Shown here one piece after another: positions 4,431 through 19,226 of a stretch of DNA of 35,466 nt. How positions within the stretch are numbered: the first letter of the stretch is position 1; the number at the start of each line of letters is the position of its first letter. The notes under the pieces were generated by a model. The model was given only the letters and a program-made list of their open reading frames with translations. It was not told where the DNA came from and did not search any database. The stretch comes from a virus: positions 1-35,466 of the IMG/VR virus record IMGVR_UViG_3300032309_002702; one strand, written 5' to 3'. The translations under genes and the position numbers were made by a program.

Positions 4431-4985
4431 ATGAAGAAAATCGTTACTATCGCTGCTCTACTGACAGCAACAACTTTGGCTACCGCCGCTAGTATCACCG
4501 TCGAAGGTCAAATTCAAAACGGCGATCGTGGTGCTCGTGACAGCGACAACTATGCACTCAGTGTACAACAGTCTCTTAACAAGACTTTTGCCGCTGATGT
4601 TGGTGTCACTACTTTCCAAGAAGATGGTACTAAAGCATTGAGCAATAGGCTTGAAGTTGGTCTTACTGGTACTCGTTCGGTTGGTCCAGTAAACCTATAT
4701 ACTCGTGTAGCAGTTGGTGAAAAATTCAGCAATGGTGCTGATTTTGGTTATTACAGTGTAGAGCCAGGCGTTGAATACAATTTTACCAACAAACTAAGTG
4801 GTAAAGTAGGTTATCGTTTCCGTAATGGATTTGGTACAAACGGAAATCTTGACACTACTAATACCACTCGTGCCGGTGTTAGCTATGCTGTAACCAAGCA
4901 GGACGCAGTTGGTGTTCGTTATGATCAAGTTCGTGGTGATAGCTTTAACCACAGTTTTAACTTTGCATATACTCGTTCATTCTGA
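4431..4985 (+). CDS. secreted outer-membrane beta-barrel protein
   Basis: The 184-residue protein starts with a typical signal peptide: MKK, a hydrophobic run, and a signal peptidase I site near ATA/ASIT (about residue 20). The mature part alternates polar and hydrophobic residues in repeated strands with Gly- and Asn-rich turns, and it ends in YTRSF. A C-terminal Phe is the usual BAM-recognised end of small 8-10-stranded outer membrane barrels. The gene has its own strong sigma70 promoter and ribosome binding site, so early or constitutive expression in the host is likely. Changing the host surface, for example to exclude other phages, is a possible role. The specific family is not recognised. 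Confidence 0.82.
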   Translation: MKKIVTIAALLTATTLATAASITVEGQIQNGDRGARDSDNYALSVQQSLNKTFAADVGVTTFQEDGTKALSNRLEVGLTGTRSVGPVNLYTRVAVGEKFSNGADFGYYSVEPGVEYNFTNKLSGKVGYRFRNGFGTNGNLDTTNTTRAGVSYAVTKQDAVGVRYDQVRGDSFNHSFNFAYTRSF

Positions 4986-5039
4986 TATTACAGAACATAT
5001 TAATAGAGTGAATTTGTATAATTATAGTTATAATTAAAA

Positions 5040-5690
5040 ATGAATTCGCTAGTATTATTAACATCGGGTACGACTAAACCTCCCAAGAAAATTAATCATT
5101 CTTGGGAGCATATTGAAAATGCGATTGAACGATCTATTTCAGAAATAGGGCTGAGTAGCAAAGACATTGTACTTGATGTGTTTCCTGGAAACACTATCGC
5201 TCATTATACAGTAACAGCAATGCCTGCATACCGTGCAGGCTCAATGTTAATATCTGCTAAATTTGAAGCAATTGATTACATATCAAAATTCAATGAATAT
5301 CGCCCTACATACATTGCATTAATTCCTAAACATTGGGAATTATTAAAAGAGCATAATCAATGGAAAACAGTAGATATGAGTTGTGTTCGTTACATGACTA
5401 CTGGATCTGGTAAAGTCCCTCAAGAAATGATTGATGATTTTTTATCAAAGGGAGTTAAATTGGTCGCTAACTGGTATGGTATGACGGAACACCCGCCTCC
5501 TGTATTAATAGGCTATAATTCAGAACAGTTTGATTTAAATCCAACTTTAGGGTATACCATTGAATTTGCAGACGATGGCGAATGTATTATAAACGGATTC
5601 TACACCGGTGATTTATTCGATGTTGCAACTAAGAAATTTCTTATGCGAAAAAATGCTCTATCTAATATTAAGACTTGGAAAAATTCTTAA
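5040..5690 (+). CDS. miniature AMP-binding (ANL superfamily) domain
   Basis: The 216-residue protein carries the core adenylation motifs: the phosphate loop LLTSGTTKPPK at residues 6-16, YGMTE at 146-150 and TGD at 189-191. It ends at a degenerate hinge (MRKNALSNIK). Typical ANL enzymes have about 500 residues; here the roughly 150 residues before the phosphate loop and the whole C-terminal lysine domain are absent. The ATG sits just before the phosphate loop with only a TATAATTA-like element upstream, so the gene looks naturally small rather than frame-broken. It may adenylate an acid for a partner enzyme. The stop shares TTAA at 5687-5690 with the convergent oxygenase gene. Confidence 0.78.
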   Translation: MNSLVLLTSGTTKPPKKINHSWEHIENAIERSISEIGLSSKDIVLDVFPGNTIAHYTVTAMPAYRAGSMLISAKFEAIDYISKFNEYRPTYIALIPKHWELLKEHNQWKTVDMSCVRYMTTGSGKVPQEMIDDFLSKGVKLVANWYGMTEHPPPVLIGYNSEQFDLNPTLGYTIEFADDGECIINGFYTGDLFDVATKKFLMRKNALSNIKTWKNS

Positions 5691-6716: not shown

Positions 6717-7474
6717 TAGTTAGTCCCAAATGTTAATGTTGGAATGTTATCCCATACAGTGTCATCTAATTTTTCAAATTCATCTATAAACTTAAACACA
6801 TTGTCTACGGGTAATGTTTTAAGTATTTCTAATTTTGCGTTCCACCAACGTGTTTTTAATAATGCTTGTTTAACATCATTTGGAAATCTGTCTCTAATCT
6901 TTTTTGCAGGTATACCTCCCACTATAGTGTACGGCTCTATGTCTTTGGTTACCACAGCATTAGCGGCAACTACGGCTCCATCGCCTATTGTCACCCCCGG
7001 CATAACAATAATTCCATCACCAAGGTAAACATCATTACCTATAATAACAGGCGTATTCATTCCTTCGATACTAGTCCTGTTTTTAGGAATATTAAGACGT
7101 TCTAGTTCGGCATCGGTGTAACTGGATTCTCTTGCCATTATAGTATCTGAATTTATACTAACTCCGCTAAAATTGTGCATTCCTCCTGCAATAGTGCATC
7201 GATAGCCAAATCCACTGTGTCTGCCGATGAATACATTTGAGCGCATATAGCCGCCACTTCGAATACTAGAATATGCACCAATAAAAATTCTATTAGGTGT
7301 ATCTTGAAAACTTGGACTCCAATTCATGGATCCCTTTTCAAACATAATACCCTCTAAATGTACGGTTTCTTTATATCGTATATTATGATCGTTAAGGGTT
7401 GCCTCACTGAGGCAAATATCAACAGGTAATGTTTTATTAAGAAACTGTTGTAGTTTATCTTCGATTTGTTTCAT
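6716..7474 (-). CDS. hexapeptide-repeat acetyltransferase (CatB/Vat-like)
   Basis: The 252-residue protein has a left-handed beta-helix. Hexapeptide repeats run from about residue 60 to 200, including IGNDVYLGDGIIVMPGVTIG and the closing VVGGIPAKKIRDRFP. H100 in GGMHNF sits where the catalytic His of the CatB/Vat xenobiotic acetyltransferases lies. It would transfer an acetyl group from acetyl-CoA to a hydroxyl or amino group of a sugar or small molecule. It is the first gene of the block and has a CATAAATA octamer five bases before its ATG. Downstream are two oxygenases, so hydroxylation followed by O-acetylation is a reasonable guess. Confidence 0.85.
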   Translation of the reverse strand: MKQIEDKLQQFLNKTLPVDICLSEATLNDHNIRYKETVHLEGIMFEKGSMNWSPSFQDTPNRIFIGAYSSIRSGGYMRSNVFIGRHSGFGYRCTIAGGMHNFSGVSINSDTIMARESSYTDAELERLNIPKNRTSIEGMNTPVIIGNDVYLGDGIIVMPGVTIGDGAVVAANAVVTKDIEPYTIVGGIPAKKIRDRFPNDVKQALLKTRWWNAKLEILKTLPVDNVFKFIDEFEKLDDTVWDNIPTLTFGTN

Positions 7475-7479
7475 GAATA

Positions 7480-7487
7480 TATTTATG
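7480..7487 (-). promoter_or_regulatory. late-promoter-like octamer CATAAATA abutting a start codon
   Basis: CATAAATA on the minus strand is five bases before the ATG at 7474. It is divergent to the octamer at 7501-7508, so one 39-base spacer serves both gene blocks. Confidence 0.55.
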
Positions 7488-7500
7488 AGTTGACCTGTAC

Positions 7501-7508
7501 ACTAAATA
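7501..7508 (+). promoter_or_regulatory. late-promoter-like octamer ACTAAATA abutting a start codon
   Basis: ACTAAATA is five bases before the ATG at 7514. A perfect TATAAATA (7507-7514) also runs into the start codon. No Shine-Dalgarno is present. Confidence 0.45.
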
Positions 7509-7513
7509 TAAAT

Positions 7514-8674
7514 ATGAAATTTATTCACAACACTGTAAGTCTTTGTAACGAGTGCTACAGACATATTCCGGGAATCGTCTACGAAAATAACGAGAAAATT
7601 TGGGTTACAAAACGATGCGATTATCATGGCGAACAACAAGAACTTGTTGAAATTGATTTAGAATTTTATTATTCTATAAATAAACAAGGTGGAAATAATT
7701 TTGTTTCCCTAATGTTTGAAGCAACAAATAAATGTCAACTTAACTGTCCACATTGTTACCACTTGCCGAATAATAAATCGATAGATAAACCTTTAGATTT
7801 ATTATTATCGACTATTGATAGCTATCCTAAGAGTTTTATTCCTATGATAGCAGGGGCTGAACCGTCTCTTTATACAAACATCATACCACTAGCCCATACA
7901 TTGGCTAACAAGTATGGAAGAACCAGAATGCTTACCAATGGTTTAAAATTTCATGATAAAAAATTTACACGATCATTATTAGAGAATGTTCAAGTATTTC
8001 CTGCAATAGGTTTAAATCACTGGACTTATCAGGGTAAAAAGATACATGATCAACAATTAGTTGCTATAGAAAATATCAAAGAGGTATCATCACTAGACGA
8101 TATAGGATATACTGTTGAGAATGTAAATCATTTACCTGAAATATTTGAAGAAATAGAAAAAATTGCCAGTCAAAAAGTCAAGATGGTTAGAATCAGATTT
8201 GGAAGTTTTATAGGCCGTAGCAGTGATAACCAGAGAAATTTTTTAAGCACCACCGTAAAATATATTAAAAACCTATTAGGTGATGAATTAATTTCTGCGC
8301 CGTTGGATGACAACCCTTATCATGTAATGTATGAATGGAAAGGTATAATATTAAGAATTATACAGTGGCCAGATGTAAGGAACATTGATATGGAAGAATT
8401 AAACACCGGACCGTGGGCTAATTTTCACGATGGTCCTATAACTAATTTTGTTCATCAGGTAATTCTTAGAGATGCCTTTGTGAATAATAACCAAATTAAG
8501 TTTGATGATTGCCCTTCTTACTATCACATAAACAACGGCGGAGACAATTACAAATATTGGAAATACGGATGGCCGGGCCCTGTAGATTTCAAAGAATTTA
8601 ATTATGTTATTACCGACGAAAGAAAAAAACCGTTAACCGTTCCTAAATTATTTCAGAGGATTAGTAATGACTAA
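7514..8674 (+). CDS. Tes/MJ0619-like radical SAM enzyme with N-terminal Cys knuckle
   Basis: The 386-residue radical SAM protein has CxxxCxxC at C74, C78 and C81 (in NKCQLNCPHC) and AGAEPS in the place of the usual GGEPT. Before the core is a CxxC...CxxH knuckle (C11, C14, C35, H38). That layout resembles the MJ0619/tetraether-lipid-synthase group, which alkylates unactivated carbons. I start the gene at 7514 rather than an upstream ATG at 7466, because the paralogues at 18192 and 19219 begin at the same point and because of the octamer spacing. Two oxygenase genes follow with 4-8 base overlaps. The C-terminus is about 40 residues longer than in its paralogues. Confidence 0.85.
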   Translation: MKFIHNTVSLCNECYRHIPGIVYENNEKIWVTKRCDYHGEQQELVEIDLEFYYSINKQGGNNFVSLMFEATNKCQLNCPHCYHLPNNKSIDKPLDLLLSTIDSYPKSFIPMIAGAEPSLYTNIIPLAHTLANKYGRTRMLTNGLKFHDKKFTRSLLENVQVFPAIGLNHWTYQGKKIHDQQLVAIENIKEVSSLDDIGYTVENVNHLPEIFEEIEKIASQKVKMVRIRFGSFIGRSSDNQRNFLSTTVKYIKNLLGDELISAPLDDNPYHVMYEWKGIILRIIQWPDVRNIDMEELNTGPWANFHDGPITNFVHQVILRDAFVNNNQIKFDDCPSYYHINNGGDNYKYWKYGWPGPVDFKEFNYVITDERKKPLTVPKLFQRISND

Positions 8675-9299
8675 GTGTTATCAAAAATTTAATATACCTA
8701 ACTTTACAGATATACAAAAAGAAGCTTTAGATTTTTTCGAAGTAAACACCCATCTTTTTCGTATCGACAACGAATATTTTGTTCATGTTCCGTTGGGTGA
8801 ATTCCCTCTCCTAAAACAATTTCTAGAAAGCCGAGCAAAGATTGAAATTAATGAAACCAGTGTTTATTTTATTACGCCTGGTTATAAATCTAAGATTCAT
8901 ATAGACGGGCTCAAAAAAGATAACGGAAAAGTTCCTGAAGGAATGATGATTGCTCATCAATGGGTTCTTATTTTGCCACTTAGTGGTTATGAAAATTCTG
9001 TTAGTAATTGGTATAGCAATGATGACGTTTCTGATGAAGATGAAAGAATATATAATCATGTCAGAGATCAATTTCCTTATAATTTTTATGTTTCATTTGT
9101 AAAAGATGATGTTGCACCAAATATAAATCCTATAGAAACTACTAACTTAGCTGGACCTTGCTTTATAAAATCTAACATATACCATGATGTTCATAATAAT
9201 GGCCCAAAAACACGAATGGTGTTCATTATTAGATTTAGAGAATTAGAACCTTATGAGTCTTCAGATTGTGTTTTTAATTACCAGGATCTCTTAATATGA
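8667..9299 (+). CDS. 2OG-Fe(II) oxygenase-like protein
   Basis: The 210-residue protein contains SKIHIDG (H78, D80), a distal His in IYHDVHNNGP (H173 or H176) and R183 in KTRMVFIIRF. That is the order and approximate spacing of a 2-oxoglutarate/iron oxygenase. The gene overlaps the upstream radical SAM gene by 8 bases and ends in ATGA with the next oxygenase, so the three are co-translated. The substrate is not deducible. Confidence 0.65.
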   Translation: MTKCYQKFNIPNFTDIQKEALDFFEVNTHLFRIDNEYFVHVPLGEFPLLKQFLESRAKIEINETSVYFITPGYKSKIHIDGLKKDNGKVPEGMMIAHQWVLILPLSGYENSVSNWYSNDDVSDEDERIYNHVRDQFPYNFYVSFVKDDVAPNINPIETTNLAGPCFIKSNIYHDVHNNGPKTRMVFIIRFRELEPYESSDCVFNYQDLLI

Positions 9300-9880
9300 C
9301 ATATATAGGAAACGAATTTGAATGGATAACCGACGAAATGATGACATTGTTAGAGAACAATGATGGCAGTAAACTTCCGGTGTGGAATCCTAATAGGTGG
9401 TATGGCCATCCGTTATTAGATAAAGTTAGATTAGCTGGTGAAGAATATTTTAAAGGAACAATGCCAAATAATTTTTTTCGTGTTTTTTATAGCCACACTG
9501 ATTGTATGGAAAATTTTAATTTTACCTTGCCTAATCTGATACCACCGCAAGAGTCTATAGTTTGGTGGTTTTCTAAATTAAATCCTGGTGAATATCAATT
9601 TACACACTACGATGCTATACTATTAGGAGTAGAGCACGATAATCCAGAATTTACAAATGTAAGTAGTGCAAAAAAATTAATAAATCCTAAACGATATACC
9701 ATGTTTCTTCAAGATTATGAACCCGGACATGCCTTCATATACGAAGACAAAATGAGTTCAAATTATAAAAAGGGAGATATCTTTGAATGGAGTAATCCAG
9801 AAACACTTCACGGCGCTGCAAATGTTAGTTTTAAACCTAGATATACTCTACAGTTGGTTATGTATGATATAGCGATTTAA
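9296..9880 (+). CDS. 2OG-Fe(II) oxygenase, paired with the paralogue at 21812
   Basis: The 194-residue protein has FTHYDA (H104, D106), a distal H172 in TLHGAAN and R182 in KPRYTLQLVMYD. It is clearly paralogous to the protein at 21812-22336: both share an IxDxxxxWITD-type N-terminus, LxPGEYQ/FQ before the HxD, and an F-x-EWS-x-P block before the distal His. Both copies close an operon that begins with a Tes-like radical SAM gene, suggesting duplicated cassettes. Its stop shares TTAA (9877-9880) with the convergent interrupted oxygenase gene. Confidence 0.75.
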   Translation: MTYIGNEFEWITDEMMTLLENNDGSKLPVWNPNRWYGHPLLDKVRLAGEEYFKGTMPNNFFRVFYSHTDCMENFNFTLPNLIPPQESIVWWFSKLNPGEYQFTHYDAILLGVEHDNPEFTNVSSAKKLINPKRYTMFLQDYEPGHAFIYEDKMSSNYKKGDIFEWSNPETLHGAANVSFKPRYTLQLVMYDIAI

Positions 9881-10371
9881 TAACCTAAAACATTAATCAT
9901 ATATTTAACTTTCATACTTCCATTAATACCAATATGTAACTCGTTAGGATTATTCCATTTAATAACTGTTCCTACAGGACAATTATATAAATGATCTCGG
10001 CCTAATATAAAGATATGACCTAACTCTGACGGAGTTATAAAAACAGCATAACGTTTAAGTTCACCTTTTGTTGGATCATGTATCTCAGCAACAAACGGAT
10101 CTCAATGCAGAGGAGCGAAAAACCCAGGATCAATGCGGCTAATCCAAAAACTATGAATAATGTTTAATCCTAAATATGATGCAATATCATCAACTAACGA
10201 TTGATCAAAGTGTACTTCAGGGTAATAGCTACGCCATTTAATGCTGTCAAAATTAAAATTATTTTTTAACCATAGAGAATATGTTTCTTCATATAGTGGA
10301 TCACTAGCCCACTGGTGTTCATATGCTGGAGTATTTTTAAATATTGTGAGTGGTTCGGTCGTGGTATTCAC
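9877..10371 (-). CDS. 2OG-Fe(II) oxygenase interrupted by one in-frame UGA
   Basis: A GTG at 10371 opens 89 codons ending in APLH, then UGA at 10102-10104. The frame continues without another stop for 74 codons to TAA at 9877-9879. The joined product (about 164 residues counting the UGA) aligns end to end with the intact paralogue at 23417-23908: DPGF versus DPGY, RYAVFI versus RYSVFI, IFILG in both, and GINGS and LGY versus IGY at the end. The UGA replaces the middle residue of the HxD iron motif (H89-stop-D91; HYD in the paralogue). The distal His is in ELHIGINGS. The intact downstream half and its shared TTAA stop argue for a recent mutation, a sequence error or readthrough rather than decay. 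Confidence 0.65.
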
Positions 10372-10376
10372 TTGGT

Positions 10377-10463
10377 CTATATATCATCCCAAGTTGTTCT
10401 CTCATAGTGGCCTGTATAACTACTGTCTTGTAATCTTAATAACGAGGGATCGAATTTTTCCAT
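10377..10463 (-). CDS. 28-residue peptide gene, candidate modification substrate
   Basis: A 28-codon frame starts MEKFDPSLLRL and ends in HYERTTWDDI. It has AAAAGG (10472-10477) eight bases before its ATG and AATAAATA (10485-10492) upstream, overlapping the stop of the methyltransferase gene. It fills an otherwise empty gap between two operon genes on the same strand. Aromatic residues and acceptors are dense in the last 15 positions (Y, H, Y, W, D, D). In a region full of radical SAM enzymes and oxygenases it could be a ribosomally made precursor. That is inference: I see no conserved leader motif and no second copy, and it may simply be a small protein or a chance frame. Confidence 0.45.
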   Translation of the reverse strand: MEKFDPSLLRLQDSSYTGHYERTTWDDI

Positions 10464-10483: not shown

Positions 10484-11251
10484 TTATTTATTTTTTGTCC
10501 ATAGACACTTATAGCCAAAAATTCCTGTAGTTGCATTCGGCGCCACATCTAAGTAGTCAGGAAGTTGTTTAATTTCAATCATTGTAGGACGACTGTTTAA
10601 ATCTTCGCTAATTTCATTTATGATATCTCTATCAGATAATACTCGTACATCTAACAGCAGTTTACCGCCGATTTTAAGAGATTGTAGTGCCCTATTCCAA
10701 TATTGATCTTTAGAATAATGCCAACACCAAGATGCTGAAGACATTATTAAATCCGCATCTTTTGGAAAATTACTACTTGGATTTAAAAAATGAAACCTGT
10801 TCTTATTAAACCCTGAAGTGTCGATTGCATCAGTTACTACGTTCCAAGAATGATAGAACGGATGAGATTCTGTAAAAGATACCGTTTTGGGATCTAGTGT
10901 TTGGGGCCATTCACCTTCTTTATCTATTAGATAAAAAGTAGAGTTAGGAACGTAAGAGTATAACAATAAATCAATAACTGAACTTCCACAACCAATATCG
11001 ATAATTTTTGAATTGTCGGGTAAATCAAACACAGATAGTTCTTCTCGTTGATTCCATAATTCTTGATACTTGTTATGAAAATGCAAGTCGTGTATTGGCA
11101 TAAATTTATTGATCAAATCCCAATTTATCATGGATAGATCAGCATAATAGCACCCGCGCTGTGGAGTAACATATCGGACCAAAGATTCTTTATCAGACCA
11201 CTTTACTTTTAAGTCTCCCTTACTAGATTTTACTATTAACTGTTCATTCAT
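10484..11251 (-). CDS. class I SAM-dependent methyltransferase-like protein
   Basis: The 255-residue protein has a Rossmann SAM-binding motif, KIIDIGCGSSVIDLL, near residues 82-96. An acidic strand end, FYLIDKEGE, and a later ADLIMSSASWCWHY stretch (the motif IV position) complete the fold. The substrate is unknown. Its ATG overlaps the upstream dehydrogenase stop by 8 bases (ATGAATGA), so translation is coupled to that UGA-interrupted gene. Confidence 0.75.
   Translation of the reverse strand: MNEQLIVKSSKGDLKVKWSDKESLVRYVTPQRGCYYADLSMINWDLINKFMPIHDLHFHNKYQELWNQREELSVFDLPDNSKIIDIGCGSSVIDLLLYSYVPNSTFYLIDKEGEWPQTLDPKTVSFTESHPFYHSWNVVTDAIDTSGFNKNRFHFLNPSSNFPKDADLIMSSASWCWHYSKDQYWNRALQSLKIGGKLLLDVRVLSDRDIINEISEDLNSRPTMIEIKQLPDYLDVAPNATTGIFGYKCLWTKNK
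10485..10492 (-). promoter_or_regulatory. late-promoter-like octamer AATAAATA at a stop codon
   Basis: On the minus strand AATAAATA contains the first two bases of the methyltransferase stop codon TAA (10486-10484). Transcription would start about six bases downstream, leaving AAAAGG intact for the 28-codon gene. Confidence 0.4.
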
Positions 11252-11798
11252 TGTTTTCTATAATTAATTCTTTTATAAAAAAATTGTTAGAATTTTTAAC
11301 TATGACATTTACTAATTCTGCAAGACTATCTGTGTTAATACTGTTAGATCTGTCAAAGGAATCCGGTATGAGATAAAAATCAGTATCCATCAACCCTATT
11401 ATAATATTTAATATTTTAACAGATCCTTTATAATTTTTTATAATATTATTTAATTCTATTTTTGAATTTCTGTATAACTCTATCTCGCCTTTAAAATAAG
11501 GACTTTCTTTATATACTATTATACTAGAAATATTAACAACAATTTTTTCTGTATCATCTCAACATTTTAATATTTCATCGAGCATATCAATTTGCCCCTC
11601 AGGATGATAGGCATTGTTGATAAAAACATCAAAGTCTTTTATTTCATTGATAATATGTTCTCTAGTTAAACGATTGCTTATATCAAACCCATTAGTTCTG
11701 CTAAATCCCAAAACATTGTGTTCTTGTGATTTAAAAATTTTATATAAGGAATTTCCAAAACCTTGAGTATGGCCTGTTATTGCAACTTTCATGAACAT
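11244..11798 (-). CDS. short-chain dehydrogenase/reductase-like gene interrupted by one in-frame UGA
   Basis: From the ATG at 11798 (GAGGAG seven bases upstream) the frame starts MFMKVAITGHTQGFG, the glycine-rich NAD(P) loop of SDR proteins, followed by NNAYH at the NNAG position. After 79 codons there is UGA at 11559-11561. It then continues open for about 104 codons to TGA at 11244-11246, which overlaps the next gene's ATG. The continuation reads DDTEKIVVNISS, the usual SDR strand after helix 4, then a YRNSK element in the YxxxK position. Rejoined, it is a compact SDR of about 184 residues. From memory, related phage SDRs have Trp at the UGA position, but this is unchecked. Confidence 0.65.
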
Positions 11799-18191: not shown

Positions 18192-19226
18192 ATGGAATTT
18201 CATACTGTCAGCTTATGCAATCATTGTTATCGTCATATACCTGCAGGACGATTTGAAAAATGCGGTCGTATGATATTGGGTAAAACCTGTCCTAAGCACG
18301 GTTATCATGAATCAATATTAGATATTGACGCTAATTTTTATAATAATCAAAGATATAAAAGACGCAGACCTAGTTCATATTGGTTAGATATTACCAATCG
18401 TTGTAACTTAGACTGTCCACACTGTTACCAAATGCCTGATAATACTAGTAAGGATCCTGATATCGATTATTTATTATCAGAAATTATGAGTTGGCCAAAT
18501 AACGGATTTCCTGTTAGTCTAGTTGGAGCGGAGCCTACTATACGCAAAGACCTGCCTGATTTAATTTTAGCTATCCATAATTTACCCATAATGACTAGGA
18601 ATGTTTTAATTGTTACTAATGGTGTAATTTTGGCTAAATGGGACTATGTAAGTCGATTTAAAGGCATACCGAATTTAAAGTGGACTTTTGGATTAAATCA
18701 TCCTGATTATAACGGTGATCAAATTCGAGACAAACAAATGGAAGGTTTAGTAAATTGTTTTAAATTAGGATTAGAGGTTAAGACGCTGACTTATACATTA
18801 GCAACCTTAGAACAATTACCTGATGTGATGCATGAAGTACAACGCTTTGGCATTAATGCTAGAATTCAATTGGGAGTTGAGATCGGACGTGTACCAGAAG
18901 GTGACTTTAAAGAATTATATCTGTCAGAATTAGTACAAGCTGCTGAAAAGTTTTGTTTAGATAATAATTGGACTTGGGAACCAAATCATGAAGACGGCAA
19001 CCGCACACATTATGCAGTGCGTGTAAACGGAATCGATCATAAATTTATTAAATGGTGTGATGTAAGAACAATTGATTTAGAAGAAGTACAAAGTGAATCG
19101 TGGGCTAGCATTGTTCCGGGTAAACCCATGAGCCCATTACTACATCAGGTTATATTACGCGATCAAGCAATTAACCGAGGGAATATATTGTTAGACACAG
19201 TTCCTGAAAAATATAGACATGAATAA
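18192..19226 (+). CDS. Tes/MJ0619-like radical SAM enzyme, tandem copy 1
   Basis: The 344-residue protein has radical SAM cysteines C71, C75 and C78 in NRCNLDCPHC, VGAEPT as the SAM-binding GGEPT equivalent, and an N-terminal knuckle C9, C12, C33, H36. It is paralogous along its length to 19219-20280 and to the core of 7514-8674, with shared blocks such as LDITNRCNL, GLNHP and VHQVILRD/LHQVILRD. The C-terminus has no extra cysteine cluster. It overlaps the next copy by 8 bases and leads a five-gene operon of two radical SAM, two oxygenase and one methyltransferase genes. Confidence 0.87.
   Translation: MEFHTVSLCNHCYRHIPAGRFEKCGRMILGKTCPKHGYHESILDIDANFYNNQRYKRRRPSSYWLDITNRCNLDCPHCYQMPDNTSKDPDIDYLLSEIMSWPNNGFPVSLVGAEPTIRKDLPDLILAIHNLPIMTRNVLIVTNGVILAKWDYVSRFKGIPNLKWTFGLNHPDYNGDQIRDKQMEGLVNCFKLGLEVKTLTYTLATLEQLPDVMHEVQRFGINARIQLGVEIGRVPEGDFKELYLSELVQAAEKFCLDNNWTWEPNHEDGNRTHYAVRVNGIDHKFIKWCDVRTIDLEEVQSESWASIVPGKPMSPLLHQVILRDQAINRGNILLDTVPEKYRHE

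Follow-up and report, generated by a model that had tools for sequence, protein, structure and literature searches.

The oxygenase gene OX, in which an in-frame UGA stands at the middle position of the HxD motif, is probably (about 0.7) a recently inactivated phage gene, and the accessory block of which it is the last member, composed of a short-chain dehydrogenase-like gene (SDR), a methyltransferase-like gene (MT) and OX, appears to be losing function. As judged by comparison with relatives, the loss-of-function reading is supported by two independent, presumably disabling changes in OX, a further one in SDR and the intact state of the same block in a related contig, L049. The pattern at this locus suggests the ordinary, recent loss of genes, or a fault in sequencing, and not a novel mode of stop-codon decoding; of the first two, a recently inactivated oxygenase is preferred and a faulty consensus is less likely.

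Results

The sequence analyzed, referred to as the window, is an IMG/VR virus record 35,466 bases long; lesion positions are given on the minus strand. The features of the locus are as follows.

9296–9880, plus strand: oxygenase-like gene of 194 codons, intact and convergent with OX, with which it shares a TTAA
9877–10463, minus strand: OX, what is left of a gene for a 2OG-Fe(II)-type oxygenase (195–196 codons at full length in relatives)
9877–10101, minus strand: the 74 codons downstream of the UGA, which are conserved, and the TAA; they contain the distal His and, ten residues on, a Lys
10102–10104, minus strand: in-frame TGA at the x of HxD in OX; Cys (TGT) in L040, L041 and L049, Tyr in the paralogue
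10376–10380, minus strand: one-base deletion in codon 29, from DNA alignments against L041 and L049
10377–10463, minus strand: 5′ OX fragment, an ATG, 28 codons and, after the lost base, a TAG whose position sets its end
10484–11251, minus strand: MT, intact methyltransferase-like gene of 255 codons between SDR and OX
11244–11798, minus strand: SDR, 184 codons, resembling short-chain dehydrogenase genes and interrupted by a single TGA, two genes upstream of OX
11559–11561, minus strand: in-frame TGA in SDR; Trp in four homologues, L049 (the closest; TGG), L043, L044 and L046
23417–23932, minus strand: intact paralogue with HYD, aligned to OX

The codon at 10104–10102 is indeed TGA, preceded by His and followed by Asp, and the frame is open before and after it, as an initial sequence-only reading had described. 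Also borne out were the match to a paralogue, which has HYD at the same site (23932–23417; 41% identity over 138 residues), and the conservation of the 74 codons past the UGA, which are open (~0.001 by chance in shuffles) with a dN/dS of 0.086 relative to L041. OX and the convergent gene overlap at 9877–9880 in a shared TTAA, again as claimed. Overlapping TAA stops of this kind occur in five convergent pairs in the window (3699, 5687, 9877, 13451 and 22333), and the arrangement at 9877 is retained in L041 and L049; in both, the convergent oxygenase-like gene (dN/dS 0.10 versus L041) is placed as it is here. The frame proposed for the oxygenase, 9877–10371, does exist, on the minus strand (the strand had been left unstated), but it covers no more than the 3′ portion of a gene of 195 or 196 codons.

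The description of this oxygenase as otherwise intact did not hold, as it had overlooked a frameshift upstream of the UGA. DNA alignments against both L041 and L049 place a deletion of one base in codon 29, within an AT repeat (ATATAT). The OX proteins of L040, L041 and L049 are 195–196 residues long and begin 31 residues ahead of GTG 10371, and the native start in the window is ATG 10463, downstream of an AAAGG ribosome-binding-like site. Residues encoded from this ATG are 89% identical to residues 1–28 of L041 OX, at which point the frame meets TAG at 10379–10377, so that the native start gives 28 residues only. Neither a slippery heptamer nor an RF2-like signal was seen by inspection at codon 29, and programmed −1 or +1 frameshifting was rejected. 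Translation might conceivably resume at GTG 10371, five bases past the TAG; the product would terminate at the UGA, ahead of the distal His (H178) and the 2OG-binding Lys (K188), so that from the sequence no active oxygenase would be expected. A three-base difference near the distal His was considered as another lesion and rejected, since it is an insertion in L041 that L049 and the paralogues also lack.

Intact OX genes are present in the viral contigs L040 and L041, both 88% identical to the window frame (L041 ORF 2364–2954, by amino acid identity), and in L049 (ORF 4798–5385, colinear with OX), whose protein is 73% identical to that of L041. Alignment of homologues at the stop, the check that had been proposed, identified the residue: all three relatives have Cys (TGT), while the wider aligned family has Tyr. 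The suggestion that the UGA is read through as Trp or Arg is therefore not supported; the relatives carry neither, and the upstream frameshift detaches the frame from its native start. A tolerant DNA pattern spanning the UGA matched, among viral contigs, only L040 and the contig of L041, both with TGT. A DNA search of public phage genomes with the region returned no match, no relative emerged when the OX family alignment was run against bacterial and archaeal genomes, and scans that left out records very near the window found no second genome with either the OX or the SDR UGA.

Purifying selection is still visible in OX on both sides of the UGA. Relative to L041, dN/dS is 0.05 before the UGA and 0.09 after it, compared with 0.10 and 0.155 for the intact neighbors. 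Counts polarized with L049 as the outgroup give 5 replacements and 17 silent changes on the window branch and 6 and 15, respectively, on the L041 branch; thus neither dN/dS nor an excess of replacements on the window branch gives any sign of relaxed selection. A gene long free of selection would carry many more replacements; therefore, the OX lesions are either recent or errors of the consensus. This agrees with the initial view that the gene has not undergone old decay and that the UGA reflects a base error or a fresh nonsense mutation.

A second gene interrupted by UGA, missed in the initial reading, lies two genes upstream of OX, at the head of the same minus-strand run. SDR is open except for a single TGA at 11561–11559, and its true stop, also TGA, overlaps the MT start. 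The encoded protein is 69% identical to that of an intact L049 ORF (3457–4023). No Pfam family matched it above its cut-off (RmlD_sub_bind/adh_short gave a partial match below it); however, it has an N-terminal TGHTQGFG, which resembles TGxxxGxG, and a YRNSK (YxxxK), which lies past the UGA. MT, between SDR and OX, is intact (dN/dS 0.155), with 81% identity to L041 and 63% to L049, and has a weak match to Methyltransf_31 below the cut-off. In L049, the SDR-MT-OX block is intact and is followed by the same convergent oxygenase gene. Directly upstream of it is a flavin-dependent tryptophan-halogenase family gene (L049:1867–3456; PF04820, E 1e-85), which is absent from the matching place in the window, and L040 and L041 have the MT-OX pair without SDR; the gene content of the block therefore varies.

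We next consider what the intact enzyme is. In a family alignment of 24 sequences, H120 and D122 of HxD, the distal His H178, and K188 are invariant. The x of HxD is no iron ligand in the 2OG oxygenase fold. No family in Pfam, PHROG or NCBIfam claims the OX sequence, and a sequence profile compared with solved structures found no credible relative. An AlphaFold2 model of L041 OX (pLDDT 80.9) has the double-stranded beta-helix fold of 2OG-Fe(II) oxygenases and matched proline 3-hydroxylase, PHD2, AlkB and a Shewanella oxygenase with Z of 11 to 12.6 over 137–163 residues (best match Z 12.6 over 152 residues, rmsd 3.9); Foldseek matched it to 2OG oxygenases with an E of 5e-5. The model and the conserved residues suggest that the intact relatives of OX are 2OG-Fe(II)-type oxygenases, with a predicted dependence on 2OG and Fe. 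They share the fold and the HxD...H, with a Lys ten residues on, with proline 3-hydroxylase (1e5s), PHD2 and the Shewanella oxygenase (3dkq); they differ in belonging to a family that the databases do not claim, and the window copy differs further in being truncated. Among viral 2OG oxygenases, which include those of uncultured Caudovirales phages and cyanophages, the best fold matches were Caudovirales phage proteins of ~200 amino acids (E 3e-9, TM 0.69), but these are uncharacterized and the best are less than 20% identical. Together with its neighbors (a methyltransferase, SDR and many radical SAM and oxygenase genes), OX probably belongs to accessory modification of small molecules or glycans.

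The three lesions, two in OX and one in SDR, fall within 1.9 kb, or 5% of the window, in two genes of one block, and no lesions were detected in the rest of the window. Homologues of all intact window proteins at related loci had no internal stops (428 matches, 104,074 aligned residues). In a whole-contig search covering 38 related records, stops appeared in only four paralogue hits, all near the 5′ end; in two of these, from L012 and L030, the tblastn stop was rejected as a lesion, being upstream of a conserved MINW start. The 7-mer TTGAGAT is common to both UGAs, but it was rejected as a shared signal, since its count in the window (eight) matches expectation (7.6).

Discussion

Under the gene-loss reading, the ancestral phage would have had a minus-strand SDR-MT-OX block such as L049 still has. 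Since then, OX would have undergone the codon 29 deletion and acquired a nonsense mutation at the x of HxD; SDR would have acquired a single nonsense codon, with its translation stopping ahead of YxxxK. The block would be dispensable accessory metabolism, because L040 and L041 have it without SDR and the window lacks the halogenase found upstream in L049. We infer both the presence of these lesions in the living population and the resulting loss of activity. Two findings run counter to gene loss: selection on OX gives as yet no sign of having relaxed, and both nonsense codons are UGAs derived from a UGN box, which random one-step routes would give ~9% of the time for each. We regard the latter as a mild, post hoc oddity. 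Like the nonsense and frameshift pseudogenes of bacteria and phages, OX has intact relatives, an open downstream frame and multiple disabling changes; it would differ from them in being very young, with a substitution pattern that is still that of a selected gene.

The alternative to be taken most seriously, although we consider it unlikely, is an error of consensus or assembly, in which OX and SDR are intact in the living phage and a poorly covered stretch yielded two wrong bases and one missing base. The apparently undisturbed selection on OX would be expected under this explanation, as it would under recent loss, and the missing base lies within the ATATAT repeat. On the other hand, three errors would have to have fallen within 1.9 kb with none detectable in the other 33 kb, and related contigs, built from the same kind of data, have 0 internal stops across the aligned residues examined. 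This clustering makes a genuine loss specific to the locus more likely than random error, although it is not proof.

We think it very improbable that the phage uses or tolerates leaky UGAs where Trp and Cys codons would stand in its accessory enzyme genes, with near-cognate tRNA-Trp or tRNA-Cys decoding both UGAs on host ribosomes to give a little full-length enzyme, and with the OX frameshift a sequencing error or a later lesion. The idea draws on the fact that relatives have Trp (SDR) and Cys (OX) at exactly the sites of the UGAs, and that the tRNAs for these same two residues, tRNA-Trp and tRNA-Cys, are said to decode UGA in E. coli (PMC5373646). Changes from UGN to UGA make up 8.7% of the one-step nonsense routes in the window, and two out of two would occur with a probability of ~0.8%, figures which weight all base changes alike and were sought in retrospect. 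E. coli nudL and pheL, whose UGAs are read through by near-cognate tRNA-Cys and tRNA-Trp (PMC5373646), provide a parallel in the same two residues that relatives carry here; they differ in that OX has an upstream frameshift and that OX and SDR are known here from their DNA alone. It is because this frameshift, which has no slippery heptamer at its junction by inspection, needs a separate excuse that we rate leaky reading so low. Furthermore, neither a supporting hairpin nor a tRNA gene was found in the window, no second genome with either UGA came to light in the scans, and the comparison concerns only two events, made post hoc.

Selenocysteine at the OX UGA was rejected: Cys in the close relatives L040, L041 and L049 would make a classic Sec/Cys pairing, but no stable hairpin follows the UGA (z +0.3 and −0.6 versus shuffles) and a SECIS-like signal is absent, the rest of the aligned family has Tyr at a position that is no iron ligand, the OX frame is disconnected upstream, and the second UGA stands at a Trp position. 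Reassignment of UGA to Trp throughout the phage or its host, to which the Trp in four homologues at the SDR UGA might point, is excluded for the whole window by the 7 of 42 listed intact genes that terminate in TGA, with no more than short extensions after it, and by 281 Trp codons that are TGG against just two in-frame TGAs, one of which, in OX, replaces Cys.

The case carries a caution: a stop in the catalytic motif of a conserved frame resembled recoding, and reading upstream with an orthologue at hand revealed a second lesion in OX and another broken gene in the block. It also illustrates, on a small scale, how accessory genes turn over in environmental phages. Should the UGAs prove to be read after all, they would represent residue-preserving nonsense codons in phage metabolism.

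The wider window (5000–35466) is dense in radical SAM, 2OG-oxygenase-like, TauD, methyltransferase, hexapeptide transferase and PP-loop genes, includes several paralogous oxygenases, and is unusually metabolic for a phage contig. Two of the radical SAM genes, at 7466–8674 and 18192–19226, have an HMPTM zinc ribbon. The first 5 kb, containing phosphoesterase, nucleotide cyclase and DUF3307 genes, have a G+C content of 37–40%, and most of the rest ~29–36%; the shift near 5 kb is a possible boundary of an imported block. At 5040–5690 is a short AMP-binding protein that covers only positions 167–346 of the 384 in its profile; this could be an acyl-CoA ligase that has been truncated, or a minimal phage form.
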